64,000 nucleotides of DNA from Halorientalis litorea (lineage in GTDB: Archaea; Halobacteriota; Halobacteria; Halobacteriales; Haloarculaceae). The stretch's first letter is position 1; every line of letters begins with the position of its first letter. The position numbers and the translations under genes are program-made. A model generated the notes under the pieces. It was not told where the DNA came from. It searched no databases and saw nothing but the letters and a program-made list of their open reading frames with translations. The DNA is taken from the NCBI RefSeq assembly GCF_023028225.1, contig NZ_CP095482.1, positions 1,116,001 through 1,180,000 on the forward strand, given 5' to 3'. Below are positions 1 through 40,480 of this stretch, in pieces.

Positions 1-2
1 AA

Positions 3-302
3 CAGTGTCTGGCCGACGTACGGATGCTGCGGGACCTGAACCCGGAGGTACTCTGTTACCCCCACTTCGGTGCGGCCGAGGCGGCGGGCCGCCTCGACGA
101 GTACGAGACGGTGCTCCCCGAGTGGGTCGAGCGCGTCGCCGAGAAGCGCGAGGAACTGGGAGACGACGAGGCGGTCGCCGACCACTTCGCGGCGGCGGCT
201 GACCTCGGGGACGTGTGGGGCGAGCGGAAGGCCCGGGAGGAGGCACGGCTGAACGTCCGGGGCGTGTTGGGGTATCTCGACGAGCGCGAGTCGGGCGAGT
301 GA
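3..302 (+). CDS. C-terminal part of a probable MBL-fold metallo-hydrolase (5' truncated by window edge)
   Basis: The frame is open from the window edge and ends at a stop at 300-302, so the gene starts upstream. The visible 99 residues contain a segment reading LNPEVLCYPHFGA, which resembles the last strand-plus-histidine region of haloarchaeal metallo-beta-lactamase-fold hydrolases, followed by a helical, acidic C-terminal tail. The metal-binding HxHxDH motif would lie outside the window, so the assignment is inferred from the tail only. An internal ATG at 24 is in frame but is not needed as a start. Confidence 0.55.
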   Translation, partial: QCLADVRMLRDLNPEVLCYPHFGAAEAAGRLDEYETVLPEWVERVAEKREELGDDEAVADHFAAAADLGDVWGERKAREEARLNVRGVLGYLDERESGE

Positions 303-401
303 CACCCGACAACCACGGGGACGGGACGTGACGCAGGAACGCGCAGTGTGGGTGTTTTAAGAACCGCCGATTCGTGTCCCCGGACGTATGGAGGGACTCC
401 C

Positions 402-2369
402 GTGAGCGCCAGCGGACTGATACCGCTCGTCGCGGCCATCATCGGCATCGGCGTCGCGGCGCAGTTACTGGCCGCACGGTTTCAGGTCCCCAGTATCATC
501 TTCCTCATCTCCGCCGGCGTCGTCCTCGGGCCCGAGGGACTGGGCCTGATAACACGGGCGTCGTTCGGGAACGCGCTCCCGGCCATCGTCGGCCTCTCGG
601 TGGCCATCATCGTCTTCGAGGGGGCCTTCCACCTGCGGGTCGGCCGCATCAAGGAGGCACCCGCGGCGACTATCAGACTGGTGACGGTCGGTGCGGCCAT
701 CGCGTTCGTCGGCACGGCACTCGCCGTCCACTTCGCGCTCGGCGCGGCGTGGGACATGTCGTTTCTCGTCGGTGCGTTGCTCGTCGCCACGGGGCCGACG
801 GTCATCACGCCGATTCTCGACGTCGTCCCGGTCCGTGACCGGGTGGCGACGGCACTGGAGACGGAGGGTATCATCAACGACGTGACGGCGGCCATCGTCG
901 CCGTCGTCGTCTTCGAGGTGGTCGTGTTGGGCGACCAATCGGGTGGCGCGTTCCTCCGTGAGTTCACCGAGCGGTTGGGCATCGGCCTGCTCGTCGGCCT
1001 CGTCGTCGCCGCCGCCGTCTTCTACCTGCTCCGGTACGTGGACCTCTCGCCGGGGAACGCCCCGCGGAACGCGCGTCTGTTGACGCTCGCCGGGGCGGTA
1101 ATCGCGTTCGGTGCGGCCGACACTATCGCCAGCGAGGCGGGCATCGCGGCCGTTGCCACCGCCGGTCTCGTCCTCGGGAACGCGGACGTGCCGTACGAGG
1201 ACGAAATCGAGGCGTTCAAGGGCGACATCACGCTGCTGGTCCTCTCGTTCGTGTTCATCGCGCTCGCGGCGTTACTGGAGTTCGAGGACCTGCTCCAGTT
1301 GGGACTGCCGGGGTTGGTCGTCGTCGCGGCGGTCATGCTCGCCGTCCGGCCGCTGTTGGTGTTCGTGTCGGCAGTCGGCGACCGCTTTACGCGGAACGAG
1401 AAGGTGTTCATGAGTTTCGTCGGCCCGCGCGGCATCATCCCGGCGTCCGTGGCGACGCTGTTCGCCGTCGAGTTGCAGTCCGAGGCCAGCACGCTCAGAG
1501 CCGAGGCCGCGACGCTCGCGGGCGCGGACCCGGCGACGGTCTGTGCGGGTGCGGTCAGCGGCACGGAAGTCGGACAACTGTGTACGGAGGCGGCCACGTC
1601 GAGCCAGCAGGCACAACTGCTCGTCGGGACCGTCTTCCTCGTCATCTTCGCGACAGTCGCACTAGAGGGCGGCTTCGCGCGCTACATCGCTGAATACCTG
1701 AACGTGATACCAATGCGAGTCATCATCGTCGGAGGCGGGAAGGTGGGCCGCGCGCTCGCCGACCGCCTCGAAGACCGAGGGGAGAACGTCGTCATCGTCG
1801 AAGAGGACGAAGGCGCCGTCGAAACGATCCGAAACGAGGGCTTCACCGCAGTCTGGGGTGACGGCACCGACACGGAGGTGTTACGCGAGGCCGGTGCGGA
1901 CAACGCAAAGACCATCGTCGCCGCCACCGGCGACGACGACGCGAACCTCCTCATCGCCCAACTGTCGGACTCGAAGTTCAGCGTGGACACCGTCATCGCC
2001 CGGGCGAACAACCCGGACAACGTGGAGGCCTTCGAGGACCTCGGCGTCCGCACCATCGACGCGGGGATGGCGACGGCGTGGGCCATCGACAACCAGATAG
2101 AACGGCCGGCACTGGCACACTGGATGACCGACGTGGGCCGGGTCGGCGACGTACAGGAGGTACCCGTCACGGCCGAGGCGTTCATCGGCCGGCCCGTCGA
2201 AGAACTCGGGCCGAAACTACCCGAGAGCTGTCTCATCGCGCTCGTCGCGCGCAACGGCGACGTGGACGTTCCAAACGCCGACATGGAACTGGAGAAGGGT
2301 GACCGGGTAACGCTGCTCGGGAACCGCGACTCGGTGCGCGAGGCGATGCAGATGGTCAACCCGGACTGA
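402..2369 (+). CDS. Na+/H+ antiporter (CPA family) with C-terminal TrkA-N and TrkA-C domains
   Basis: Membrane protein of about 655 residues. The first ~430 residues form roughly 12 hydrophobic segments typical of cation:proton antiporters; the segment LLVATGPTVITPIL near residue 130 is a CPA-type motif. The last ~220 residues carry a TrkA-N Rossmann domain (VIIVGGGKVGRALADRLE) and a TrkA-C domain, which in related proteins bind nucleotides and gate ion flux. The likely role is cytoplasmic pH and Na+ homeostasis. The GTG at 402 is preferred over the far upstream in-frame start at 348: it is preceded by a GGAGG-like site about 10 nt upstream and leads directly into the first membrane helix. 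A TATA-like TTTTAA lies at about 354. Confidence 0.9.
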   Translation: MSASGLIPLVAAIIGIGVAAQLLAARFQVPSIIFLISAGVVLGPEGLGLITRASFGNALPAIVGLSVAIIVFEGAFHLRVGRIKEAPAATIRLVTVGAAIAFVGTALAVHFALGAAWDMSFLVGALLVATGPTVITPILDVVPVRDRVATALETEGIINDVTAAIVAVVVFEVVVLGDQSGGAFLREFTERLGIGLLVGLVVAAAVFYLLRYVDLSPGNAPRNARLLTLAGAVIAFGAADTIASEAGIAAVATAGLVLGNADVPYEDEIEAFKGDITLLVLSFVFIALAALLEFEDLLQLGLPGLVVVAAVMLAVRPLLVFVSAVGDRFTRNEKVFMSFVGPRGIIPASVATLFAVELQSEASTLRAEAATLAGADPATVCAGAVSGTEVGQLCTEAATSSQQAQLLVGTVFLVIFATVALEGGFARYIAEYLNVIPMRVIIVGGGKVGRALADRLEDRGENVVIVEEDEGAVETIRNEGFTAVWGDGTDTEVLREAGADNAKTIVAATGDDDANLLIAQLSDSKFSVDTVIARANNPDNVEAFEDLGVRTIDAGMATAWAIDNQIERPALAHWMTDVGRVGDVQEVPVTAEAFIGRPVEELGPKLPESCLIALVARNGDVDVPNADMELEKGDRVTLLGNRDSVREAMQMVNPD

Positions 2370-2437
2370 GCAGGACTTCGGGTGACACCCCCGCGACGGG
2401 GAGACGCTTTTAGTACCAGCGGGGTGGAGTGGGGTGC

Positions 2438-3445
2438 ATGACGGACCTCGACCTCGTGTTGATGACACGGGACCACGACTCGGTGGATTCGGTCGCCCAA
2501 CAGGCAGTGCGCGCCGAGAACCACGGCTTCAGTCACGTGACGATGGGGGAGACGACCGGCTGGAACATCCTCCCCGTCCTGACGGTCATCGCCGAGCGGA
2601 CGGAGGACATCGGCATCACCGACGACGTCCTCTCGCCGTACTCGCGCGCGCCGACTGTCGTGGGCCAGAGCGCGCTCACGATGCACGACGTGACCGACGG
2701 CCGCTTCCGTCTGGGCCTCGGGACGAGTTCCCCCGCCATCGCGGAGGGGTGGCACGCCCAGTCGTTCGACCGGCCGCTCCGTCGCCTCCGCGAGACTATC
2801 GACGTCATCCGCGAGGTGTACGCGGGCGGTGACGTCGACTACGACGGCGAGATATTCGACGTGGGCGGGCTGAGTTACGAGGGGACGGTGCCGGACGACC
2901 CGCCGGCCGTCGACGTGGCCGCCCTCGGCCCGAAGGCCGCGGAACTCGCCGGTCGCTTCGCCGACGGCTGGATTCCACAACTGTTCACTCACGACGGACT
3001 GGCCGACCGGATGGCGGACCTCCACAGAGGGGCAGAACTGGGAGACCGCGACCCCTCGGCGTTGCGGGTGAGTCCCATCGTCCGGTGTTACGCGAGCGAG
3101 GACCGCGAGCGCGCCCGGTCGACCGTTCGGCAGATGGTCGCGTTCCTGCTCGGCGCGTACGGGCCATTCTACGGCGACTCGGTGGCCGAGCAGGGCTACG
3201 AGGCGGAAGTCGAAGAAATCCGCGGGGCGTGGGAAGAACGGGACACGGCCGCGATGGCCGAGGCACTCCCCGACGAACTCCTCGACGCCGTCGCCGCGGC
3301 GGGGACCCCCGACGAGGTCCGGGAGCGCGTCGAGCAGTTCGCGGCCGTCGACGGCGTGAGTGCCGTCCGCGTCGGCTTCGCCTCCGGCATGACACAGGAG
3401 GCAAAGGAGACGACGTTGGACGCACTCGGTGAACTGACCGGCTGA
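2438..3445 (+). CDS. mer: LLM-class F420-dependent oxidoreductase (methylene-tetrahydromethanopterin reductase-like)
   Basis: A 335-residue protein of the luciferase-like monooxygenase fold. Supporting stretches are DLVLMTRDHDS at the N terminus, LGLGTSSPAIAEGWH near residue 90 and VAALGPKAAELAGRFADGW near 165, all characteristic of F420-dependent TIM-barrel reductases. Haloarchaea use such proteins as Mer-like enzymes in C1 metabolism with coenzyme F420, but the substrate cannot be fixed from sequence. The ATG at 2438 is chosen; an in-frame GTG three codons earlier is less likely. A TATA-like TTTTAGTA lies 30 nt upstream, consistent with a leaderless or short-leader transcript. The gene is monocistronic between the antiporter and the aldehyde oxidoreductase. 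Confidence 0.82.
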   Translation: MTDLDLVLMTRDHDSVDSVAQQAVRAENHGFSHVTMGETTGWNILPVLTVIAERTEDIGITDDVLSPYSRAPTVVGQSALTMHDVTDGRFRLGLGTSSPAIAEGWHAQSFDRPLRRLRETIDVIREVYAGGDVDYDGEIFDVGGLSYEGTVPDDPPAVDVAALGPKAAELAGRFADGWIPQLFTHDGLADRMADLHRGAELGDRDPSALRVSPIVRCYASEDRERARSTVRQMVAFLLGAYGPFYGDSVAEQGYEAEVEEIRGAWEERDTAAMAEALPDELLDAVAAAGTPDEVRERVEQFAAVDGVSAVRVGFASGMTQEAKETTLDALGELTG

Positions 3446-3541
3446 ACGGGAACGGCGGTTTCCAATGGAAACGGATCGCCGGAGATTCGTGACCGCTATC
3501 TCCTGATTTTATTACCCCGGCTTCCAACGTATACCACGACA

Positions 3542-5227
3542 ATGATTCACGGGCGCGGACCGCTGTTGAGCATCGACGTGGGGGCGCGGGAGACGGAGAC
3601 GGAAAACATCGACGGCGTTCTCGAATCGTTCATCGGGGGCCGGGGCGTGGGGACGAAACTCGCACACGAGCGGATTCCGTTCGACGCGGACCCGCTGGGC
3701 CCGGAGAACCGGCTGGTGTTCGCCACCGGGCCGCTCCAAACCTCACAGATGAGTTTCACCGGCCGGATGAACTGCACGGGGCTGTCGCCGCTGACAGACG
3801 GCCTGCTCTCCTCGAACGCGGGTGGGTTCATGTCCCGGCCGTTCACCGACACCGGCTACGGCGCGGTCGAGATTACGGGCGCGAGCGACGCCCTCGTGGG
3901 CGTCCACGTCCGCGACGACGGCGTGACCTTCGAGGAAGTCGGCGACCTCGAAGAGGCCACTGTGGACGAGACCATCGAGTACGTCCAGTCCGAACACGAC
4001 CTCGGCGACGAACACACCGCCATCGTCGGCCCGGCCGGCGAGAACGAGGTGCGCTTCGGTGCCATCATCACCTCCGAACACCGCGCGTTCGGGCGCGGCG
4101 GCCTCGGTGCGGTGCTGGGGTCGAAGAACGTCAAGTTCGTCACGTTCGACGGCGACTCCCGGCGGGACGTGGAACTGGACGAGGAAGTGACACAGGCGAT
4201 TCATCAGGAGGCCGCCACCTCGGATAGCCCGATGAAGGACGCGGGGACCGTCTCCGTCTCCTCGTTCGCCAACGCCGTCGACGCGGTGCCGACGAAGTAC
4301 TTCGAGGAACTCTCCTACGACGGGTTGGAGAACATCGGGTCCTCGGCGGTCATCGACCACAAGTACAAGAAGGGGACCTGCTCGTCGTGTGCCTTCGCCT
4401 GCAAACTCCCGACCAAAGACGAATCCGACGGGTTCACCACCGAAGGCCCTGAGTGGGAGACGGTGATGGCCTTCGGGTCGAACGCACTGGTCGACGACTT
4501 CCGGACGGTCATGGAGGCAAACGACATGTGCGACAACCTCGGGATGGACACCATCTCCTGTGGAGACACCGTCTCGGCGTACCTCGCCAGCGAGGACGAG
4601 TTCGGCAACGAGGAGTTGCTGTTGGAACTGGTCGAGAAGATAGCCTACCGCGAGGACGAAGGTGACCTGCTCGCGGAGGGCATCGACCGCGTCCACGAGG
4701 AGCTGGGCGTCGAGAACTGGACCATGAAGGGCATGGAGTTCGCGGCCCACGACGGCCGGACGCTGAACGGGCAGGGCCTCTCGTACGCCACCTCGAACCG
4801 CGGCGCGGACCACATGTACGCCGTCGTCTACGACTACGAGTACCCGCTCGTCGCCCCGAACGAGGCGATGCCCAAGGAGGGCGTCGACGGCAAATCCGAG
4901 CGCGTCATCGAACTCGAAAACCGCAAGGCAATCAGGGACAGCGGCGTCCTCTGTCAGTTCTCCTCGTCCTACACCGAAGAGGAGCGCTACGAGAGGGTGT
5001 TCCAGACCGAGTACGACCACCTGATGGACGTGGGCAGTCGCATCGTCGAACTGGAGCGGCACTTCCACAACCAGCGCGGGAAAGACCGCGCGGACGACGA
5101 GTCACTCCCCTACGAGTTGGACGGCCTCAGCGAGGAACTCTCGAACTACTACGACCTGCGTGGCTGGAACGACGACGGCACCGTCCCCGACGAGTCCGTC
5201 ACCGGTGCGTCCGCCGTCGGTGACTGA
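3542..5227 (+). CDS. aor: Tungsten-containing aldehyde:ferredoxin oxidoreductase
   Basis: Full-length (561 residues) AOR-family enzyme oxidising aldehydes to carboxylates with ferredoxin as electron acceptor. N-terminal GGRGVGTKL and the GRGGLGAVLGSKN stretch near residue 185 match the tungstopterin-binding domain. The [4Fe-4S] ligands are visible as CxxCxxxC at Cys280, Cys283 and Cys287, with the distant fourth ligand at Cys471 inside DSGVLCQF, the expected pterin/cluster motif. Nothing essential appears missing. It stands alone; no tungstate transporter or cofactor gene adjoins it. A TATA-like element (ATTTTATTAC) at about 3506-3515 precedes the ATG. Which aldehyde it uses is unknown. Confidence 0.93.
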   Translation: MIHGRGPLLSIDVGARETETENIDGVLESFIGGRGVGTKLAHERIPFDADPLGPENRLVFATGPLQTSQMSFTGRMNCTGLSPLTDGLLSSNAGGFMSRPFTDTGYGAVEITGASDALVGVHVRDDGVTFEEVGDLEEATVDETIEYVQSEHDLGDEHTAIVGPAGENEVRFGAIITSEHRAFGRGGLGAVLGSKNVKFVTFDGDSRRDVELDEEVTQAIHQEAATSDSPMKDAGTVSVSSFANAVDAVPTKYFEELSYDGLENIGSSAVIDHKYKKGTCSSCAFACKLPTKDESDGFTTEGPEWETVMAFGSNALVDDFRTVMEANDMCDNLGMDTISCGDTVSAYLASEDEFGNEELLLELVEKIAYREDEGDLLAEGIDRVHEELGVENWTMKGMEFAAHDGRTLNGQGLSYATSNRGADHMYAVVYDYEYPLVAPNEAMPKEGVDGKSERVIELENRKAIRDSGVLCQFSSSYTEEERYERVFQTEYDHLMDVGSRIVELERHFHNQRGKDRADDESLPYELDGLSEELSNYYDLRGWNDDGTVPDESVTGASAVGD

Positions 5228-28880: not shown

Positions 28881-29135
28881 TTATCTCTGTCGAAACGGCC
28901 GCGCCAACGCGTGGTAACGTCTCACGCGGGCGTTCCACGTTCCGCCGCCACGTCGATGGACCCCGGATGCCCAACCGGAACCGGACGGACGCCGAGGCGG
29001 TCGCTTTCGACCCGGTATCCGACCGGAAGCCTCGTCGTCCAACGGTGGCACGTCCGCCACCTCGTGTGGTACCGTGTAGCATCTGAGTCCGTCCGTAGGC
29101 CGCGGTTTCTGTTCGTACGCATTCGCCACCACCAT
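28881..29135 (-). CDS. Possible small leaderless ORF of unknown function
   Basis: An 84-codon ORF beginning [18 protein letters not shown] minus-strand TATA-like TTATAAAC at 29158-29165 sits almost exactly 26 nt before its ATG, as expected for a leaderless haloarchaeal gene. Against it: third-position G+C is lower than in neighbours and the second half is Arg/Gly-rich and not protein-like. An overlapping frame starts 4 nt earlier. Confidence 0.22.
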
Positions 29136-29320
29136 ACATCAGCAGAAAAATGTTATGGTTTATAATGTTAATACTCATTAATGCGCTTGCGGACTCTAGA
29201 GCGGGCTTACGAGTATAAGGGAGAGAGGTTGTCTAGCACGGAGCGACCGGCGTGGGACGGAGCAGGCGACCAGTAACGACCGGACGGTGCAACCGCTGGC
29301 AGGGAAGAAAGCAAAGAGGT

Positions 29321-29345
29321 GGGGTGGGGGGTGGGGGAAAGGGGG
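29321..29345 (+). repeat. G-quadruplex-forming tract
   Basis: Four runs of 4-6 guanines (29321-29324, 29326-29331, 29333-29337, 29341-29345) are separated by loops of 1, 1 and 3 nt. This is a textbook intramolecular G4 pattern, here in a non-coding stretch. Confidence 0.8.
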
Positions 29346-29628
29346 TGGCACCATAACGGTGCCTACGCTCGGCTAACGTTGGCATGGATAAATAGTTTGT
29401 GTTCGTATCGGTTCGTCCACCGACAGGAGCGGTGGTCCGGAGCGAACAGATGTGCTTTGAGCAGGTACTCGCGTGCGAGGGTGACGGTGCCGACGTGTAG
29501 CCATCCGGCTGCCGAGGTATCAGTGACCCAGTCGCTATCCGAGTTGTCGAAACCCATCGATGGGTTCGTCCCGGCAGCGGACCGCGCTCGGTACTATCCG
29601 AGCGGTCGTCCCGTATCCATCACTGTAG

Positions 29629-29724
29629 TCAGAATAGTCCAGCGAGTAACAAAAACGAAGACAGGAGGACGACGAGAACGTACAACCAGAGAGCGACGTG
29701 GTGCAACGCCGAGACACGTCTCAT
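29629..29724 (-). CDS. Possible 31-residue single-helix membrane peptide
   Basis: Starts MRRVSALHHVALW and continues into one hydrophobic helix ending LLLAGLF: a positively charged N terminus plus one transmembrane segment. No clear promoter or RBS is seen and no homologue is recalled, so it may be chance. Confidence 0.25.
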   Translation of the reverse strand: MRRVSALHHVALWLYVLVVLLSSFLLLAGLF

Positions 29725-30101
29725 ACGGTGTGACTCCACGTACCCGTCCGGGTCGGATTCCCGCTGTCCCTGCCGGAGAGACCCGCGGTAAACTGGCGCG
29801 TTATCACTTCCCGCTCCGAGCTCATCGCTCCGTTCTCCGGGTTCGCACTTTGTCTCCAGTGGACGTAGTTGCGCATGCGTACTACAATTAGCACTCGTTC
29901 CATCAAGACGCTCATTGGTGTGTACATCGTCGAGCAGAAGCGCGTGCCGATGTACAACGGTGTCCCGACACCGGTGGCCATCCGGCAGGTAGGCCCTACC
30001 TAGAAGACGCATAGTTTCGACGAGTGGGGGTGGTGCTACACGCCGACGGAGAGCCGTACCGGGGATGATATGCCAACTGCCGGACGGGACCGTATCGGTG
30101 C

Positions 30102-32816
30102 CTACAAGAACAGTCCTTCGAGGAGTTTGCGTTCCGCGGCGCGTAAGTGCTGGCTGAACGTCGACTGTGCGATTCCGAGTTCGGCGGCGACGCTGTCCGC
30201 GTCCGTGCTTCGCGGCTGGTCGAAGTAGCCCGCGTGAAACGCCATCTGGAGAGTTTCACGCTGCCGGTCGGTCAGTCGTGCGTCGGTAGTTCCGACGGCC
30301 CGCTGATTCGGTTGCTGGTCGCTAGCGTCGTCGTACTTGCCCACCAGTTCGATGTCGCCGAGGGCATCCGTGACAGCGTCGGCGTACTCCCGGACCACGG
30401 TGTCAGAGGGTAACCGCACAGTCGCGGTGAAACTCTCCGAGTCGGACCGGGCCGTTACCTGCTCGAGTGTCCCGCCGTGTCTGACCATCTGCCGGAGCGG
30501 CGACGCTGTCTCCAGTGTTACGACACACGTCAGTCCGTCCGTATCGTCACGGAGCGTAGATACACTCGGTCTGTTCTTGACTTGTCGCGTTATTCGGTCG
30601 CGGTCGTGGCTGGCATCGAGTTCGACCCGCGTGAAAACTGCACACGTGCCGTCGCCCCAGCGTGAGACATCCGTCACCCTGAGCGGGGCGTCGATGTCCG
30701 TCGTCAGGCGAGACAACGGTGAGTCTGCATCGATGCGGAAGGTGAGGGTCGTCGCACCGCCCGACAGGAGTGCGTTCCGCTGTCGAATCGCACCGATAGC
30801 GTGCCCGATAGTCACGCCGAGTTCCGCGAGTGCGTCGACTGCATCGTCGGAGAGCCCACCCGGACGGTCGAGGTGTACCTCTATCGCACCGAAGATTGTG
30901 CCGTCCTGAACGACCGGAACTGCCACGATAGTGTTGGTCCCCTGTTCGAGCGCTCGGTCGCGCCACCACACGCCGGAATCGACTGTCACGAGGTCTGTCA
31001 CGGACACGGTCGACCGCGCATCGTACGCTTCTCTCGCCGGAAGCGTCGGCGTCGTTTCGACGCGTCGAGAGCTTTCGGTCTCCGAACTCGATTGTTTTAT
31101 TCGTGATAGGTACTCGTCGAGGCTGCCGGCGGAGGCCCGACAGACGGTCCGAGTACTCGGTACGTCGACGCTTGCGACCCACGCACCTGTTACTGGGCCG
31201 GTACGAAGCAGACGGCGGCAGACTGCCGTTTCGATTTCCCCGCGGGTGTCCGCGCTCGTCACGGCCACGTTGAGGGAGCGGATGAGCCGGTTGATCCGGT
31301 CGAGCCGCAACAGCCGCTCGTTCTGCCGTTCCAGTTGTCGGTCGCGGTCTTTGAGGTGTCGAGTGCGGGCCACCTGCTCGAGTGCCTGTCGCGTACTCGC
31401 GGCCCACGTCTGTGCGAGGCTCTGCTTGGTGGCCGGGAGTGGTTCCCCGTCTGTCGTCGCCGCGAGGAACACGCCTCGGTGGCCGAGCGGGCAAATCAAC
31501 CAGTCGTCGAACGCCTCGTCGAGCCACTCCTCAGACGTGCCGTCCCCTCGGTAGCTGTCGGCCGTCAAGCGTCCCGTCCGGTCGGCGAACGCCGTCCAGA
31601 CTGGGCCCGAACCGCCGGAGCGTGTCGGGAGGTCCGGGTCTGTGTCGGGAGCTGTCGTCTCGCTTGCCATCGGTACGAGGTCGCCGGTACCCGTGTCCCT
31701 GACAAACACTGCCGCGTACGGCAAGTCCAGTTCGTCTGTCGCGGTCGTGACTGCGTGTGTCGTGACAGCCTCGTCCGTCTCGGCGGTCAGTAGCTCTCGC
31801 GTCGCGTGGTGGAGCACTTGGAGGTACTGTTCGCGTCTGTACCGGCCCGTCACGTCGTGGTAGTGTTCGATCCGTCCGCCAGCGTACAGTCCAGTCTCGA
31901 CTGGCGCGCTCCAGTATTCGAGCCACCGCTCGGCCCGTGTTCCGTCTTCGGGAACGTGGACGGTTGCGTCGATTTCGCTCCGCCGATTCGCAAGTCCCTC
32001 TCGTATCAGCGACACGAGCGACGCGTCCTCGGCTTCGATACTACCGAACTGTTCCGCCGCGACTGCCGCGTACTCGCGTCCACGAGCGTCCGCCCGGTCG
32101 AGTCCGAGTAACGTCTCCGTCGCCGTGTTCGCGAACACGACCGACCCGTCGGCGTCGATAACGACTGTCGCCTCCTTCGCACTGTCGAGTACGTCCGCTG
32201 TGAGTGATTCGTATCGTCGCTCGCTGGCCCGTTCAGCCGCCGTCCGCTGCAGACGCTCGACCGCAACGCGGAAATCATCGTCCGGGAGGCCAGTCAGCAG
32301 TTCCTCGACAGCCGTCTGTTTGGCTTCGAGCCGAGCGGTGAGCGAGTGGTACTCCTCGCTCGTTTCGAGTTCCGTCGTACTCTTGACCGCTTCGAGTGTG
32401 TCCTGTCGCTCGATCAGTGAGAACAGTTCCTGAACCTTCTCGTCGTAGTCTGCGCGGGTCAACATCCGGTCGACCGTCTCGTGTAACACGTCGGCGTCGA
32501 CCGGCTTCTCCAAGTACGCGTCGAACCCCATCTGGACGATGTCGAGGCCGGGCGTAACCGCAGAAACCATCACCACCCGTGGGTCGACCGACGCGTCCCT
32601 GACCGCCTCGAGGACCTCACTCCCGGAGAGTCCGGGCATCATCCGGTCTAGCAACACGACGTCGACCGTCTCGTCCAGTCGTTCGAGGGCTTGGCTCCCG
32701 TCGTACGCTATTTCGACCACGTACGATTCTTCGAGCCACTCTGCGTACAGGTCGGCCAGGTTCCGGTCGTCCTCGACGACGAGTATCGAAGGCGAATCCA
32801 GCTGCGTTGCACCCAT
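30102..32816 (-). CDS. Response regulator with REC-HalX-PAS-GAF-GAF and Bat-type HTH output
   Basis: A 904-residue transcription regulator. Order: receiver domain (~8-125; phospho-acceptor Asp57 in VVLLDRMMPG, Lys104 in YLEKPVDADV), HalX helical domain (~125-195), PAS (~210-325), two GAF regions (~330-480 and ~510-670), the Bat-associated domain (~680-840) and a C-terminal HTH_10 (LTDRQRETLQMAFHAGYFDQ...QSTFSQHLRAAERKLLEG). The central and C-terminal parts match the bacterio-opsin activator Bat, here preceded by a receiver, so output should be phosphorylation-controlled. It starts 1 bp after the stop of the giant kinase gene, its evident partner. Confidence 0.88.
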   Translation of the reverse strand: MGATQLDSPSILVVEDDRNLADLYAEWLEESYVVEIAYDGSQALERLDETVDVVLLDRMMPGLSGSEVLEAVRDASVDPRVVMVSAVTPGLDIVQMGFDAYLEKPVDADVLHETVDRMLTRADYDEKVQELFSLIERQDTLEAVKSTTELETSEEYHSLTARLEAKQTAVEELLTGLPDDDFRVAVERLQRTAAERASERRYESLTADVLDSAKEATVVIDADGSVVFANTATETLLGLDRADARGREYAAVAAEQFGSIEAEDASLVSLIREGLANRRSEIDATVHVPEDGTRAERWLEYWSAPVETGLYAGGRIEHYHDVTGRYRREQYLQVLHHATRELLTAETDEAVTTHAVTTATDELDLPYAAVFVRDTGTGDLVPMASETTAPDTDPDLPTRSGGSGPVWTAFADRTGRLTADSYRGDGTSEEWLDEAFDDWLICPLGHRGVFLAATTDGEPLPATKQSLAQTWAASTRQALEQVARTRHLKDRDRQLERQNERLLRLDRINRLIRSLNVAVTSADTRGEIETAVCRRLLRTGPVTGAWVASVDVPSTRTVCRASAGSLDEYLSRIKQSSSETESSRRVETTPTLPAREAYDARSTVSVTDLVTVDSGVWWRDRALEQGTNTIVAVPVVQDGTIFGAIEVHLDRPGGLSDDAVDALAELGVTIGHAIGAIRQRNALLSGGATTLTFRIDADSPLSRLTTDIDAPLRVTDVSRWGDGTCAVFTRVELDASHDRDRITRQVKNRPSVSTLRDDTDGLTCVVTLETASPLRQMVRHGGTLEQVTARSDSESFTATVRLPSDTVVREYADAVTDALGDIELVGKYDDASDQQPNQRAVGTTDARLTDRQRETLQMAFHAGYFDQPRSTDADSVAAELGIAQSTFSQHLRAAERKLLEGLFL

Positions 32817-32817
32817 A

Positions 32818-35800
32818 CTACCGTCCCGGTACCCCCTTATCCGAGCGTGCCGTTTCGGTCGGCAGACGCACGCACACCTCGGTCCCGTCCGGTCCGGTGT
32901 CGACCGATACGTCGCCGCCGGCCTGTCTCACGATTGTCCGGGCCATCCACAGGCCCAACCCCTGTCCGTGCCGGAGTGACGTCTCTTCACCCTTCTCGAG
33001 TACCTCGGCTTCCATCTCCGGCATCCCCGGACCGTCGTCGCTCACGCTGAGCTCGACCCACCCACCCTCCGGCGCGGCGAGTTCGATCTCAACTGTCGAG
33101 TGGTTCGACGCATCTATCCCGTTCTCGACCAGCTCACGGACCGCCTCGAAGGTCTCTACCGGAACTTGGGCCGACTCGCCATCCGGCACGTCGGTCACAA
33201 CCGTCGCATCGGGGTACGTGTCTTTGACCGAGTGTTCCACGTCCAGTAGCAGTGATTCGTACCCCGTCGTCGCCTGCTGTTTCTCCTGTTTCCCGAGTAC
33301 CTGCCGTATTTCCGATATCTTGTTGCTCATCGCGTCCCACTTGTCGAGCACCGTCTCTATCGTCTCGAACTGCTCGGCCCGGGCGTCCGCGTCCGCCGTC
33401 TCGGACATGAGCTGTGTCCAGCCGCGAATCTTGGTCAGGTCGTTTCGCATATTGTGCCGTAGTACCCGCTGCATGACCTCTAGATGCTGTCTGTACTGCT
33501 GTCGCGCGGTGACGTCACGACCCTCTGTGACGAGGAGGGAGACGGTGCCGTCCTCGTCGGTCACGGGTTTTATCGAGAAGTCTATCGTCGCGAGGCCGTT
33601 GGCACCGCGTGCCTCTGTCTCGTACCGGACGAACTCGCCGTTCGCAGCCCGGGCGATGGCGTCTCGGACGCCGTTTCTGGCCGTCTCGGAGTGTCCCCAC
33701 CACGGAGCCTCCGGGAGCGGCTTCCCAATGATACTGTCGCGTTCGACGCCTGCGAACTCGAGGGTCGCGTCGTTAGCTTCGGCGAGTGTGCCATCCGGTT
33801 TCAAGAGGCCCGTGAACTGGAACGTCTGGTTGAAGATGCTCTCGAACCGCCGGGCGCGCTCCGTGCGTTCGGTCACGTTCCGGAGGTAGACGAGTATCCC
33901 GTCGATAGCCTCGTCGTCGAGCATGTTTCGATAGTGGCCTTCGACGTTGAACCACCCGCCGTCCGGGGACGCGAGACGGCATTCGGCAGTGACGTCTTTC
34001 GCGCCATCGACACAGTCGTAGAACATCTTCAGTGCGTGTTCTCGCCCGTCCGGGTGGAGGTAGTCGAAGAGGTTCTCGCCGACGAGGTCGTCGGGGTCGT
34101 AGTCAAAGACCCGTTCGGCCGAGCCACTGGCGTACGCGACAGTGCCGTCCGCTTCGAGGATGGTCACTACGTCGTCGGACTCCTCGACGAACCGCTCGGT
34201 TCGGCGTCGCTGTCGGCGTCGGTCTGTCATGTCGCGGACAATCATCGCGTACCCACGGAACTCGCCGTCGTCGGCTTCGAGCGGCGCGAACTGAGTGTCA
34301 CCGTAGAACGTCGTCCCGTCCACACGAGCGCACTGCCCCTCGTGGGCACTCTCGCCGGCGATACGCGCCTGCTGGAGCAACCGTTCCGGCAGTCCCGACT
34401 CCCGGTCACTGTCGGGGTACAGTTCGGCCATCGCCATCCCGACGGCCGCCTCGGCGTCGTAACCGAACGTGTTCTCGGCACTGTCGTCCCACGTCTGGAT
34501 GGTCCCGTCCTCGCCGATGGCGAGAAACACGTACTCGTCGACACTTTCTGTCAGCAGACGGAACCGCTCGCGCTCGGCTCTCAGTTCCCGCTCGCGTCGT
34601 ACCTCCTCTGTCACGTCCTGTGCCAGCAGCAATCCGTGGGTCTCGGTCGACTGGCCGTCACTGTAGTCGACCGGAACGATCTGAATCCGGACTGTCCGGT
34701 CGTCGAGTTGGACCCGGCGGTCCGTGCGCTCGCCATCGAGGGCTGCTCGGGAGCGTGCCACGAGCTCGTCTCGGGCGTCGACATCGGGGAAGACCGTCCC
34801 CACAGCCATCCCGGAAATGTCCGACGCGTCGCGGTCGAACGCCGACAGGAGTTCGCCTGCGGCCAAGTCGTATTCGAGGTCCGTGTCGAACGTGAGAACG
34901 GCACCGTTCGGGATGTTCTCTGCGAGGCGCCGGTAGCGTCGTTCGTTTCGCTCGCGCTGTCGTTCCGCGTTCTTCCGGTCGGTGATATCCATCCCGGTGG
35001 CGAGGACCCGAGTCAAGTTCCCCTCGTCGTCGTACGTCGGGACGGCTCGCGTCCCGAGCCAGCGAACGGTGCCGTCGCCGTCGGTCGTCCGGAACTCATC
35101 GACCCACGACTCGCCGGTCTCGGTTATCCGCTCTAAGTTCTCCCGGACCCGGGCCCGGTCGTCCGGGTGGACCGTCTCTACGAATCCCTCGACGGATTCG
35201 ACATCCCGGCCGACGATGTCGACGAGTGTCTCGTTCCACGTTACTGTGTCCGTCTCCACGTCCCACTCTGCGAGGCCGGTGTTCGTCCCCGAGAGCGTCA
35301 GTTCGAGTCGTTGGCGCTGTTCTCGCAGGTCGTCGTGGGTCTCTCGTCGGTCCATCTCGTAGCCGATCCACTGTCCGACCAGACTGATGAACGACCGCTC
35401 GAACTCGTCGAAGGGGTCCGCACGGGGTTCGGTCGCGGCGAAGCACAGTGTCCCGTACAGGTCGCCACTGGCGGCGACATCAGCCCCGAGGTACGTCTCT
35501 AGCTCGAACGTCTCGTAGGCTGGGTCGTCCGCCCAACCGTCCTCGGTGGCGTGTATGAGTGCCATGGGCTCGTCTCGCTCTATCGTCTCTCGGCAGTACG
35601 ACTGTGAGAGCGGGACCGATTCGTCCGGCTGGAGGCGGTCGTGTGACCCGAAGCTGTCGACGATGGTCTGTGTGCCGGCCGCCGGTTCGGCGTCCGTCTC
35701 GATACGCGTCAAGAAGCCGTAGGGGAGGTCGAGATGGTCACTGACGGCGTCCAGAAGCATCGAAATCTTTTCCTCGAACGCCGTCTCGGGGTCGGTCGTG

Positions 35801-38640
35801 ACCTCGTAGACACGCTCTATGAGGTCGATTCTCGCCTTGTTCTGTCGTTCGCGCTGCTTGCGCTCCGAGATGTCCACGAAAAGGGCGTTCGTTCCGGTCG
35901 TCTCGTCTCGTCGCGGGACCGCACGCAGAAGCGTATCCACCTGTTCGCCGTTCGCGCCCAGGAGCCGTCGCTCGGCCACCTCGAACTCGCCCGTGAGTGC
36001 GTCCTCGTACCCGCCGCCGGTGAGTTTGGACGTGGACAGGGCGGTGTAGAAGTGTTCGAGCGGTTCTCCCACTATCTCTCCGCGGTCGTATCCGAGTCGG
36101 GTCCGGAACTGCTCGTTGCACGACGCTACGACCGCCTCTCCGTCGACTTCCCGTGTTTGGACGAACAGTAGCGGTCCGTGGCTCAGGAACTGTTGTAGCC
36201 ACTGGCTTCGCTCTCGGCGTTCGGTGACGTCCTGACTGATGCCGACGAAGTTCTGAACGGTCCCCTCCTCATCGGTGACCGGCGTGAGCGAGAGCCGCGT
36301 CCAGTACTCCGTTCCGTCTTTCCGGTAGTTACGGAGTTCGAGTGACACCGGCTCTTCGGCGTCGACGGCCTCGCGGAGCCGCGCTTCCTTCGCTGGGTCT
36401 GTGTTCGGTCCTTGGAGGAACCGCGGGTTGCGGCCGAGTACCTCCTCGCTGGTGTAGCCGGTCACGCGCTCGAAGCCGTCGTTGACGTAGACCAGTGGAT
36501 TGTCGGCCCGTGTCGGGTCGGTAATCTGGATGCCGACGGTAGCCTCGTTCATGGCCTGTTCTTTGAGTTCGAGTTCACGTTCCCGGGTCTGGCGTTCGGT
36601 TTCGTCGCGGACGGTACAGACGAGTCGCCCGTCCTCGACCATCGTCAGGGAGAGTTCGGCGGGAAACGTCGACCCGTCGGGTCGGCTCCCCGTCACCATC
36701 CCACGCCAGTAGCCGTCCGCCTCGAGCGTCGGGAACGCCTCCGCTTGAAGCCGTTCGACCTCGTCCTCGTCGTACAGTTCGCGCCACGAGTGTCCGAGCA
36801 GTTGTTGTTTGTCCTCGAAACCGTACATGTCCACGTGGGACTGGTCGATGAAAACGTACTCCCCGTCCTCGAGCACCGCGACGCCGTCCCTCGCCGATTC
36901 GATGGCCTGCTGGAACGACTCCAACTGTTGTCGCCGCTCGTTCCGGGCGGTAATGTCCCGGAGTACCCCGGCCGTCCCACGGAACTCGTCGTTATCGATC
37001 AGTGCAAGCTGGTTCTCGACGACCAGCCGGCTACCGTCGACCGTTTCGAGGGTGAACTCCGCAGTCGTCGACCGGTCGTCTGTGGCGAGCAGGTCCGCTA
37101 TCTGGTTGCGGATTCGTTCGACGTCCGAATCGTCCATCGTGGCCGACGGTCGCTTCCCGATTATCTCGCTGTCGTACCCGAACTCGCGTTTCGCCGCGTC
37201 GTTGACGAAAGTGAACCTGCCTTCGGTATCGAGCGCGTACACCGGGTCGTCGACGGCCTCGAGAATCGCTTCGTATCGCTCCAGTTCCTCGAACCGGTGG
37301 CGGCGTTCGATTTCTGTACCGACCCACTGTGCGACGAGTTTGGCGAACTCTCGTTCCCCCGGACTGAACGGCTCCGGTCGCGGTTTCGCCATCGAGAAGT
37401 TCACCGTTCCGTACGTCCTGCCGTCGACGACGACGGGCACTCCGATGTATGCACGGACGTTCTCCGCCGCCGGGTGACTCTCGTAGTCGGTATCCGCGGC
37501 ATCGGCGAACGCGAGCGTCTCGGTCGTCTCGTTGGCGAGCGTCGCGTGACACATCGTCTCTTGGAGTTCGTACACGGCACCGGCCCGGTGTGTCCCGGTC
37601 GCGTCGACGACGGCCTCGACCTCGTAGTCGTCCTCGTCTACGTGTGAGAGGATTCCCGTATCGAGGCCGAGATGGTCACACCCCAGTGACAGCAGTCGCT
37701 CGATTGTTTCGTCGAACGCCTCGGCAGCCACGGTGAGTTCGTTCAGTCGACGGAGTAAACCTGCGTCAAGCTTTGGCTCCGCCGCGGTTTGTCGTGGGTC
37801 CGTCTGTGTGGTGCGGGATAGCTCCTGCACTGTCGTGCGGACGTAGCTCGACCCGTCGACTTCCACCGTTGTACTCGTGAGTTCGACCGTCACGTCACTC
37901 TCGTCTGCACGTTCGAGGGTCGTTCTGAGTGGGTCCGGCGTCCCGGCGACGCTGGTGTCGAGATACTCTCGAACAGCCCCGGTTGCCGGTTCGTGAGCGA
38001 TATCGGCTACGTTTCTCCCCAGTAGCGTTTCGCGGTCGTACCCGGTCATCTCACGGGCCGCGGGACTGACCGCGACGATGACTCCGTCGTCGTCGCTGAG
38101 GAACGCGGCGTCGTCCGCCTCCTCGAACAACGCCCGGGCGGCGTGGTCTACCGACTGGTGCCCGTCGATACGAGCTAGTGCCGTTTCGAGGTGTGCTGCG
38201 ATGGCTTCGGTGACGGTTACCCCTTCGTCGTCTAGCTCTGCCGGGTCCGTGACACCGAGGTGTAACGTTCGGTTGCAGCCGGCGGGAACGAAGACTTCTG
38301 CCTCAGTGCTTCCCGGAGGGTCGGTGTCGACTGTCGCTTCGGGCGTCGCGTCGGCCGAGAGTTCGCCCCCGCGTTCGCCGGACTGCTGGATGACCGACTC
38401 CGGTATTCGGTCCGGCGCAGTAACCGGATTGTCCGAACTCCGGCCCGACGAGGCGAGGGTGGACACCGTGTCCGTATTCGAGTCGTAGTCACAGACGCTC
38501 ACGGCGGGTTGGTCGAACGCTGTCTCGGCCAACTCGACTGCACGAGTGACGGCGGCCGACACCGTCTCGGCCTGGCCGATCTCGGCCGACAGAAAGAGCA
38601 GCGAGGCAGAACTTGCAGAAGAGGGGTGAGTGTTTACCAT
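32818..38640 (-). CDS. Giant multi-PAS/GAF sensor histidine kinase with a Cys-less LOV-like domain
   Basis: A soluble 1,940-residue kinase with no transmembrane segment. Approximate order: N-terminal GAF-like (15-160), PAS1 (165-280), GAF (290-448), PAS2 (453-570), PAS3 (573-690), PAS4 LOV-like (693-810), PAS5 (813-930), GAF (935-1100), PAS6 (1110-1225), PAS7 (1234-1350), PAS8 (1358-1475), PAS9 (1483-1595), PAS10 (1597-1715), kinase core (1716-1930). Phospho-acceptor His1729 is in VLRHNMRNDL; N box RELVENGID (Asn1840), G1 SDDGPGM and G2 GQGLGLWMA are intact. PAS4 contains GRNPRFLQGPNTDPA (from 736): a LOV signature with Pro739 in place of the photoactive Cys. It is first in an operon with the Bat-type response regulator. 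The ATG at 38640 lies ~26 nt after a TATA box (leaderless). Confidence 0.9.
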   Translation of the reverse strand: MVNTHPSSASSASLLFLSAEIGQAETVSAAVTRAVELAETAFDQPAVSVCDYDSNTDTVSTLASSGRSSDNPVTAPDRIPESVIQQSGERGGELSADATPEATVDTDPPGSTEAEVFVPAGCNRTLHLGVTDPAELDDEGVTVTEAIAAHLETALARIDGHQSVDHAARALFEEADDAAFLSDDDGVIVAVSPAAREMTGYDRETLLGRNVADIAHEPATGAVREYLDTSVAGTPDPLRTTLERADESDVTVELTSTTVEVDGSSYVRTTVQELSRTTQTDPRQTAAEPKLDAGLLRRLNELTVAAEAFDETIERLLSLGCDHLGLDTGILSHVDEDDYEVEAVVDATGTHRAGAVYELQETMCHATLANETTETLAFADAADTDYESHPAAENVRAYIGVPVVVDGRTYGTVNFSMAKPRPEPFSPGEREFAKLVAQWVGTEIERRHRFEELERYEAILEAVDDPVYALDTEGRFTFVNDAAKREFGYDSEIIGKRPSATMDDSDVERIRNQIADLLATDDRSTTAEFTLETVDGSRLVVENQLALIDNDEFRGTAGVLRDITARNERRQQLESFQQAIESARDGVAVLEDGEYVFIDQSHVDMYGFEDKQQLLGHSWRELYDEDEVERLQAEAFPTLEADGYWRGMVTGSRPDGSTFPAELSLTMVEDGRLVCTVRDETERQTRERELELKEQAMNEATVGIQITDPTRADNPLVYVNDGFERVTGYTSEEVLGRNPRFLQGPNTDPAKEARLREAVDAEEPVSLELRNYRKDGTEYWTRLSLTPVTDEEGTVQNFVGISQDVTERRERSQWLQQFLSHGPLLFVQTREVDGEAVVASCNEQFRTRLGYDRGEIVGEPLEHFYTALSTSKLTGGGYEDALTGEFEVAERRLLGANGEQVDTLLRAVPRRDETTGTNALFVDISERKQRERQNKARIDLIERVYEVTTDPETAFEEKISMLLDAVSDHLDLPYGFLTRIETDAEPAAGTQTIVDSFGSHDRLQPDESVPLSQSYCRETIERDEPMALIHATEDGWADDPAYETFELETYLGADVAASGDLYGTLCFAATEPRADPFDEFERSFISLVGQWIGYEMDRRETHDDLREQRQRLELTLSGTNTGLAEWDVETDTVTWNETLVDIVGRDVESVEGFVETVHPDDRARVRENLERITETGESWVDEFRTTDGDGTVRWLGTRAVPTYDDEGNLTRVLATGMDITDRKNAERQRERNERRYRRLAENIPNGAVLTFDTDLEYDLAAGELLSAFDRDASDISGMAVGTVFPDVDARDELVARSRAALDGERTDRRVQLDDRTVRIQIVPVDYSDGQSTETHGLLLAQDVTEEVRRERELRAERERFRLLTESVDEYVFLAIGEDGTIQTWDDSAENTFGYDAEAAVGMAMAELYPDSDRESGLPERLLQQARIAGESAHEGQCARVDGTTFYGDTQFAPLEADDGEFRGYAMIVRDMTDRRRQRRRTERFVEESDDVVTILEADGTVAYASGSAERVFDYDPDDLVGENLFDYLHPDGREHALKMFYDCVDGAKDVTAECRLASPDGGWFNVEGHYRNMLDDEAIDGILVYLRNVTERTERARRFESIFNQTFQFTGLLKPDGTLAEANDATLEFAGVERDSIIGKPLPEAPWWGHSETARNGVRDAIARAANGEFVRYETEARGANGLATIDFSIKPVTDEDGTVSLLVTEGRDVTARQQYRQHLEVMQRVLRHNMRNDLTKIRGWTQLMSETADADARAEQFETIETVLDKWDAMSNKISEIRQVLGKQEKQQATTGYESLLLDVEHSVKDTYPDATVVTDVPDGESAQVPVETFEAVRELVENGIDASNHSTVEIELAAPEGGWVELSVSDDGPGMPEMEAEVLEKGEETSLRHGQGLGLWMARTIVRQAGGDVSVDTGPDGTEVCVRLPTETARSDKGVPGR

Positions 38641-38982
38641 GCAATACTATATGATCATGTAGTAATAAATCCCCCGTCACCAGTTTTTATTATTGATTCC
38701 AGTGGCCCGGCCGCTGAGTGGCTTGAATCCAGCTTCGAGTGCTTTCAAACCGGGTTTTTTACGTATACCTTCCCCGGAGCGGGCGAACTCCGCCCCTAAT
38801 CTCACTTCTGAAACTTCCTTATCGGCGGCCAGAGCCGTATCTTTTTCAGTACGCTTGATACATTTCCACCGCTTCGAACGACTACCCGAGACTACTGACA
38901 ACGAGTAATGTGTCACAGATTCGGGCCGCGGTGGCGGCCCACACGCTCACGTGTTTGTACGAGATTATGGTTTGCGCGGAGA
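38641..38982. other. AT-richer intergenic region between kinase operon and tRNA-Thr
   Basis: Base composition is clearly lower in G+C than the flanking genes. Besides the kinase promoter, a 79-codon minus-strand ORF (38677-38916) is open; its Lys-rich, low-GC3 composition is unlike neighbours and no homologue was recognised. No other gene is seen. Confidence 0.45.
38646..38670 (-). promoter_or_regulatory. Promoter and 18-bp near-palindromic operator of the kinase operon
   Basis: On the minus strand a TATA box (ATTTATTA, 38663-38670) lies about 26 nt before the ATG at 38640. Between them, 38646-38663 (plus strand ACTATATGATCATGTAGT) is a palindrome matching its own reverse complement at 16 of 18 positions, with core ATGATCAT. 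A dimeric regulator bound here would block transcription start. Confidence 0.6.
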
Positions 38983-39053
38983 GCCTAGGCCGGAATTTGA
39001 ATCCGGGGTCTCGTCCTTACCAAGGACGCGCTTTACCGCTAAGCTACCCAGGC
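38983..39053 (-). tRNA. tRNA-Thr (anticodon GGT)
   Basis: A 71-nt cloverleaf on the minus strand: acceptor GCCTGGG/CCTAGGC with one G-T pair, D arm GCTT...AAGC, anticodon stem CGTCC/GGACG with loop TTGGTAA (anticodon GGT), variable loop AGACC, T arm CCGGA-TTCAAAT-TCCGG. CCA is not encoded and no intron is present. It borders the mobile-element remnant on the right. Confidence 0.95.
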
Positions 39054-39269
39054 ACTCAGGGTGCGTACACCCCGCTTTTCCGCCTTCTGCGCTCGAATTT
39101 ACTACACAGCCGTATAAGAATGTGGTGAAAGCCACCGACTGTGCCGTACCGTGACGTGCCAAAGCAGTAATTGAAACCCTTCCGAAACTCGCCTCCTCGA
39201 TGAAGCGAACCCCAATCGAAGCGTAGATTTAGTTGTCCATCAGGCAATACTGAGAGCGACGAAGCTCGG
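39054..39269. other. Intergenic sequence upstream of tRNA-Thr
   Basis: No gene is seen. A minus-strand TATA-like TTCTTATACG at about 39110-39120 may drive the tRNA. The lower G+C here continues into the element remnant. Confidence 0.4.
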
Positions 39270-40055
39270 TTAGAAATCCGAAAGTGAAGCTACTTCGCCA
39301 CCCTGTTTGTTTTCTTCAATCTGGACATCCGTATCCTCTACGGGGTTATGTGACACCTCGTACCCCTCCTCGGTTTCTCGAATATCCGAGACAGAGTAGA
39401 ACTGAATCGGTTTCTCTTGCTTCGTCGTGACGGGGAAGTCGTAGTTATCAGCCTGATATTTAAACTCCTTCCCCTCGGGCAGACGCTCCTCAACGAACTC
39501 TTTGTGGTCGTCTAACCGTTGTTTGACGACTTCACGCGAGTATTCTGGAATATCTTCGACTCGTTGCTTGAACAACTGCACGAATTCCTCATCCAGTTCA
39601 TATCCGACGGAGTTTCGCCCCGCGACCATCGCGGCGAACGAGGTCGTCCCTGTTCCCCAGAACGGGTCAAGCACAGTATCTCCATAGACAGAATACATAT
39701 TGATGAGTCGATACGGAATCTCAAATGGGTACGCCGCAGAACGCTCTCTTAATTCGCTTTGTCCAAGAGCTTGAAGCACCCCTTTAATCTCCATCCAAAC
39801 GTCGGAAAACCACTGGTTCCTTTCTTCGCAAAAGTACGCCGAATTGTAGCGTCGTTCCGACCCCGGCTCGAAGGTTCGACTATCCTTCCCGTTACGGAAG
39901 ACGAGGATATACTCGTGTTCAAGCGTTACGTAGGCGTTGGGCGGGAGCATACCTGAACCCATAAACTTGGCTCCCGAATTGACGGGTTTGCGCCACAGAA
40001 GTTCAGGTAGAGGCTCGAATCCGAGGTCTTCGAAAGCGTTGATAATTCGAGACAT
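39270..40055 (-). pseudogene. N-terminally truncated DNA (N4-cytosine/N6-adenine) methyltransferase
   Basis: The 261-codon frame matches the second part of a beta-type DNA methyltransferase: [33 protein letters not shown], and the SAM-binding motif I region [19 protein letters not shown] followed by VGYELDEEF. In this motif order the catalytic TSPPY (motif IV) precedes this region, and it is absent. An in-frame TAA lies only four codons upstream of the ATG at 40055, and the integrase fragment ends 94 bp further upstream, so the first ~90 residues are deleted rather than frameshifted. Base composition is lower in G+C than neighbours. It is probably inactive, although the ORF itself is intact. 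Confidence 0.8.
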
Positions 40056-40148
40056 ATGCGAGGATGATTAGTGTAATCCCCATTACTCTACCGACACCCG
40101 CTATTTCGACCAATCTCTGACGAAAAATGTGAAAGACTGCTAATCAGC

Positions 40149-40463
40149 CTACCAGATTTGTTCTACCGCCGACGACCGCGTTTCCGAGTCTGAATGTAGA
40201 TACTTCATCGTCGTCGTCACGCTCTTGTGGCGAAGTTGCTCCTTGGCATAGTGTGGCCCGACGTGATTCGCCCAATGAGTCGCCACGCCGTGCCGAATCG
40301 AGTACCACGTCACGTCCTTGTTCTTCGGGATTGAGACGTTCCCCTCCTCGATGAGTCGGCGCAGGAGATAGTTACACGACTTCGAGCTGTATCGCGTGCC
40401 CTTCTTCGTGAGCCACAGCTCGTCGCGGTCTTGGTACTTCTCGTAGATCGCAGTTCCATCGAA
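40149..40463 (-). pseudogene. C-terminal fragment of a tyrosine recombinase/integrase
   Basis: An open frame of 104 codons without a start, bounded upstream by an in-frame TGA at 40464-40466. It encodes the catalytic end of a phage-type integrase: VTWYSIRHGVATHWANHVG (box II Arg) and LRHKSVTTTMKYLH (His/Lys and the nucleophilic Tyr), ending SSAVEQIW. All N-terminal core-binding sequence is missing; chromosomal DNA of the next gene begins within about 20 bp. Together with the methyltransferase it marks the remnant of an integrated plasmid or virus beside tRNA-Thr. Confidence 0.85.
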
Positions 40464-40480
40464 TCAGAGGTCAAAACGAT

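Follow-up and report, generated by a model that had tools for sequence, protein, structure and literature searches.

A soluble multi-PAS histidine kinase and an adjoining HalX-containing Bat-type regulator in Halorientalis litorea: a probable two-component pair

Archaea have few response regulators with a DNA-binding output, and these have received little study. More than 250 BAT/HTH_10 proteins have been described, typically built as REC-PAS-GAF-BAT-HTH_10, and the REC of Bat is stated to be divergent; the archaeal two-component census gives HalX only as HalX, REC-HalX and HxlR-REC-HalX (PMC5847659). In a halobacterial Bat, the LOV domain carries Pro in place of the Cys, binds flavin and shifts its conformation on reduction, a Pro-LOV location in the regulator that is a feature of the Bat studied and is not known to be shared by the whole class (PMC4682037); Pro variants have also been reported among archaeal LOV sequences from Lake Diamante (PMC12202551). 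Here, we describe a locus in a window of 64,000 nucleotides of Halorientalis litorea (contig NZ_CP095482.1, positions 1,116,001 to 1,180,000), where a histidine kinase (HK) and a response regulator (RR) are encoded side by side. Judged by their sequences, the two most probably form a dedicated two-component system in which HK phosphorylates the neighbouring RR (probability about 0.75).

Architecture of the locus

The initial annotation was exact in the coordinates and lengths of both genes and in their spacing, with one base between the HK stop and the RR ATG (Table 1); since both frames are conserved at full length in other genomes, they are not chance frames. In HK, Pfam recognises ten PAS, two GAF (residues ~310-444 and ~960-1093), HisKA and HATPase, with the phospho-acceptor His and the HATPase N and G boxes expected of a HisKA-type kinase. 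The N-terminal region (1-158) is GAF-like, no Pfam model matching the region alone, and is probably a third GAF, so the count of about thirteen sensory modules made earlier corresponds to twelve recognised plus one probable. HK was rightly called cytoplasmic, as none of its segments has the hydrophobicity of a typical membrane helix, and inspection of the hydrophobic segments gave no membrane-helix candidate in either protein.

RR has the acidic pocket, phospho-Asp, Ser/Thr and Lys of a receiver, directly followed by HalX and then by PAS, GAF, BAT and HTH_10 in the Bat-type order. The reading of RR as a Bat-like PAS-GAF-GAF-HTH protein with a receiver holds overall, but one of the two GAFs is only GAF-like, and HalX and BAT had been missed; across HK and RR, the sensory domains are nearer 14 recognised plus 2 probable than the seventeen proposed. 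The statement that Bat homologues usually lack a receiver fails as a general rule, REC-PAS-GAF-BAT-HTH_10 being a described class (PMC5847659), and stands locally, where 7/7 other large HTH_10 proteins scanned in the window genome are without a Pfam REC.

Table 1. Features of the kinase-regulator operon (positions in the window)
Feature	Residues	Position	Strand	Basis
Response regulator (RR): REC-HalX-PAS-(GAF-like)-GAF-BAT-HTH_10	904 aa	30102..32816	(-)	ORF + Pfam
HTH_10 DNA-binding domain	RR 848-900	30117..30275	(-)	Pfam E=6e-22
BAT	RR 690-835	30312..30749	(-)	Pfam E=7e-16
GAF	RR 526-674	30795..31241	(-)	Pfam
GAF-like region, unrecognised by Pfam	RR 335-495	31332-31814	(-)	conserved in relatives
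PAS, not reported LOV-like	RR 209-327	31836..32192	(-)	Pfam
HalX	RR 120-185	32262..32459	(-)	Pfam E=5e-18
REC; D16, D17, D57 (phospho-acceptor), S85, K104 present	RR 11-115	32472..32786	(-)	Pfam + residue check
Histidine kinase (HK): GAF1?-PAS1-GAF2-PAS2-PAS3-PAS4(LOV-like)-PAS5-GAF3-PAS6..PAS10-HisKA-HATPase	1,940 aa	32818..38640	(-)	ORF + Pfam
HATPase_c, N/G1/G2 boxes intact	HK 1831-1929	32854..33150	(-)	Pfam + residue check
HisKA, phospho-acceptor His1729	HK 1716-1790	33271..33495	(-)	Pfam + residue check
PAS4, LOV homologue, Cys->Pro739	HK 688-813	36202..36579	(-)	YtvA match E=1e-35
PAS3, best-conserved sensor module	HK 572-684	36589..36927	(-)	clade A vs B identity
Putative leaderless promoter region just before HK ATG: TATA-like TTTATTA (38663-38669) and imperfect palindrome ACTACATGATCATATAGT (38646-38663)		38646..38669	(-)	

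Just upstream of the operon, a minus-strand trio (window 38981-40474) comprises tRNA-Thr (ggt), an N6/N4 DNA methylase frame matching its profile only in part and a tyrosine-recombinase C-terminal fragment; the group is likely the remnant of an integrated element, and a search of the window for an att repeat matching the 3' end of tRNA-Thr found none.

Pairing of kinase and regulator

When 146 family genomes were searched with the regulator and the kinase C-terminus as queries, the two repeatedly matched neighbouring places, and the genes are adjacent in all 24 loci in which both could be measured, distributed over clade A, clade B and lineage L114; the search for co-conserved adjacent pairs in other haloarchaea suggested at the outset has found them at every readable locus. 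Each of the seven further clade-A loci read has a 4-bp overlap of stop and start (ATGA), and most of clade B has a 3-bp gap, the spacing across loci being mostly an ATGA overlap or 1-5 bp. The REC acid pocket, Asp57, Ser85 and Lys104 are invariant in 25/25 regulators, as are His1729, Asn1840 and the G-box residues in 24/24 kinases. Distances between kinase cores correlate with those between regulators over clades A and B together (r=0.976, Mantel p=0.0005), a value mostly reflecting the clade split and shared descent, and within clade A (r=0.82, Mantel p=0.008). Adjacency, invariant catalytic residues and correlated divergence together bear out the operon and the kinase-regulator pairing, and from gene order, domain content and co-inheritance we infer phosphotransfer between the two proteins.

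The operon might instead be no insulated pair but a neighbourhood of regulatory genes, with HK mainly serving other receivers, among them perhaps the stand-alone REC-HalX proteins, and RR responding chiefly to its own PAS/GAF ligands. HalOD1, REC-HalX and DUF5658 genes do lie downstream of most clade-B operons and a HalOD1 gene downstream of several of clade A, and three kinases with related cores (L088-L090) occur with no regulator gene adjoining; nevertheless, the strict co-inheritance of HK and RR, their near-overlapping genes and their correlated divergence, together with the absence of any HalOD1 or REC-HalX gene downstream of the window operon, make this arrangement unlikely. The small-protein gene encoding DUF5658 is conserved after the REC-HalX gene (L092 13794-14174 and the clade-B equivalents).

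As a dedicated pair, the soluble HK would sense intracellular signals through its tandem PAS/GAF array, autophosphorylate at His1729 and pass the phosphate to Asp57 of RR, whose phosphorylation may be modulated by its own PAS/GAF/BAT modules. The phospho-signal would be carried through the HalX helical segment, altering DNA binding by HTH_10, so that the pair would combine a Bat-like action with kinase input.

Sensor modules and the LOV homologue PAS4

Mapping of the window modules onto the relatives found the full fifteen-module order of HK also in A07HB70 and Halorientalis LUM.68. PAS1 and PAS5 are frequently missing, the L070 kinase is devoid of PAS4-PAS6 and GAF3, and the clade-B kinases have a shorter sensor array, while a relative in genome G020 is longer; as that relative reaches 2,306 aa, the number of domains in HK is not unique. 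Several modules are lost or gained among relatives, and the earlier suggestion that all sensory domains feed one promoter switch is an inference. Mean identity between clades A and B is highest for PAS3 (69%), followed by REC (62%), PAS4 (58%), HalX (57%) and HTH (55%), and is only 38-42% for HisKA/HATPase and 20% for BAT. That a sensor domain, PAS3, is better conserved than the kinase part suggests that PAS3-PAS4 is the specific input and that the remaining modules serve for tuning; the main signal would probably enter at this core, the other modules being interchangeable. The input of PAS3 may be a ligand, and that of the relatives' Pro-LOV the flavin redox state or light. Comparison of PAS3 with PDB sequences gave no meaningful ligand clue, and the structure predictions for the regulator and for PAS3-PAS4 (mean pLDDT 51 and 56, respectively) were too weak for use.

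The window PAS4 carries the motif NPRFLQ with Pro739, in place of the GxNCRFLQ with adduct-forming Cys of LOV photoreceptors, and two further changes, N104->T and Q123->S (YtvA numbering). It retains seven of the nine residues (G59, N61, R63, F64, L65, Q66, N94, N104 and Q123) of which a Cys-less LOV* keeps all or nearly all (PMC4682037), and thus falls outside that class; N104T and Q123S make flavin binding by the window copy doubtful. The light/oxygen response cited for Bat at the outset is not borne out for this copy, whose LOV-type PAS has neither the adduct Cys nor two further flavin residues. All nine are kept in L076 and in most clade-B copies, where the other flavin residues examined are all present except for Q66H in L083, and Pro occupies the adduct-Cys position in every paired kinase read that has PAS4. 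A search of the window genome with the Pro-LOV as query (E<=1e-15) returned five places; the motif was read in four, corresponding to the two paired kinases (Pro) and two Cys-LOV proteins.

A canonical NCRFLQ Cys-LOV is present in kinases L085, L088, L089, L090 and L091, whose cores group in the tree among clade A, not clade B. The idea that Cys-LOV occurs only in unpaired kinases was dropped, since the L091 kinase gene precedes, where its contig ends, the initial 41 residues of a REC related to the window regulator. The L091 kinase (1-4536) has both Cys-LOV and Pro-LOV, and its genome (G081) holds a window-type pair on another contig; L088 (5032-11949) also combines both types in a 2,306-aa kinase relative with no adjoining regulator. 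A broader scenario may be sketched only tentatively, and we do not favour it: the flavin redox/light sensor of Bat would have moved into a partner kinase, turning a one-component into a two-component activator, Cys-LOV (light) kinases, in which the Cys-LOV accompanies or replaces the Pro-LOV, and Pro-LOV (redox) kinases would feed one Bat-type regulator family, and the cassette would spread horizontally.

Spread, possible targets and comparison with known systems

Of 392 genomes drawn evenly across the order, 16 have the full-length regulator fusion, all of them in two families, and the next matches were mostly stand-alone REC-HalX-like frames of ~200 aa. Regulator identity to the window is 54-74% in clade A and ~44% in clade B, with L114 as one deeper lineage (the regulator tree being a quick tree), and the window genome holds one pair of each clade. 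The clade-B copies are plasmid-borne in Haloplanus, Halorientalis and Halorubrum and are nearly identical across genera, with TnpB and transposase genes beside three of the four plasmid copies. This rare and patchy occurrence, together with the plasmid-borne sister clade, indicates that the pair moves horizontally. It is most unlikely, nevertheless, that the pair is carried by mobile DNA as a selfish or decaying element and serves no maintained function in its host: the patchy spread, the plasmid/IS context of the sister clade, the lower GC content of the operon (0.638 vs 0.671 in its surroundings), the integrase and methylase remnants by the upstream tRNA-Thr and the degraded copies at L066 and L074 would all fit, but neither window frame is interrupted over 8.5 kb, and none of the catalytic residues is lost.

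On the Haloplanus rallus plasmid (L092 5521-9994), the kinase is annotated in two frames, which form one frame in near-identical plasmids, reflecting either a sequencing error or a disruption. Elsewhere in the window genome (L102 982-3913; contig C2 ~28981-31912), a kinase-like frame lies directly upstream of a GAF-BAT-HTH_10 frame devoid of REC, and the opposite strand holds a REC-HalX-like gene; the group is apparently an unfused version of the HK and RR parts.

Regarding the target genes, the HTH_10/BAT homology of RR, the Cys-LOV of the sister kinases and the bacteriorhodopsin gene that in Haloplanus rallus lies beyond the HalOD1, REC-HalX and DUF5658 genes downstream of the clade-B operon could suggest a light-driven, Bat-like regulator of opsin genes. 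This is very unlikely: the nearest opsin lies ~105 kb from the window operon in the same genome, the other clade-B plasmids read have TnpB/transposase genes and no opsin at the equivalent place, and opsins are present in 129/146 family genomes, so that their presence is uninformative. Opsin linkage is ruled out as a general rule. Moreover, HTH_10 regulators also control denitrification (NarO) and DMSO respiration (DmsR) (PMC11218638), which makes anaerobic or redox adaptation as likely a role as opsin control. The palindrome ACTACATGATCATATAGT before HK is single copy in the window genome and was not seen in the relatives, which share no conserved operator upstream of the kinase with the window; it is possibly an autoregulatory operator.

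The initial annotation put this arrangement forward as not known to have been described, and the HK/RR arrangement is absent from the archaeal two-component census (PMC5847659). A limited literature search found neither cognate kinases for Bat-type regulators nor the HalX-containing fusion, the conserved kinase partner or the kinase-side LOV. The conserved, horizontally spreading HK and RR offer a concrete phosphotransfer pair for testing, and natural variation among the relatives, in the domains lost and in the Cys/Pro-LOV swap, indicates which sensor modules matter. In comparison with the Bat of Halobacterium and the REC-PAS-GAF-BAT-HTH_10 class (PMC5847659), RR is likewise soluble and haloarchaeal and shares the order REC, PAS, GAF, BAT and HTH_10, but has HalX inserted after REC and before PAS, one more GAF-like region and canonical REC residues; the window pair also has a dedicated adjacent kinase, and its Pro-LOV is in the kinase and not in the regulator. 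Like BAT-LOV* (PMC4682037), PAS4 is a PAS of the LOV type in which Pro replaces the adduct Cys, although it sits in a kinase, and the window copy has no equivalents of Asn104 and Gln123, both of which the clade-B copies keep. HK resembles the haloarchaeal cytoplasmic multi-PAS/GAF kinases (PMC5847659) in being soluble, with many PAS/GAF modules before HisKA-HATPase, and differs in having many more modules than usual and a conserved transcription-factor partner adjoining. As in the REC-HalX regulators (PMC5847659), HalX follows REC in RR, with ~50% identity over the N-terminal 200 aa to the stand-alone forms, but here REC-HalX is fused to a complete Bat-type regulator. In summary, the kinds of parts are known, and the HalX-containing fusion, the kinase partner and the kinase-side LOV are the new details.
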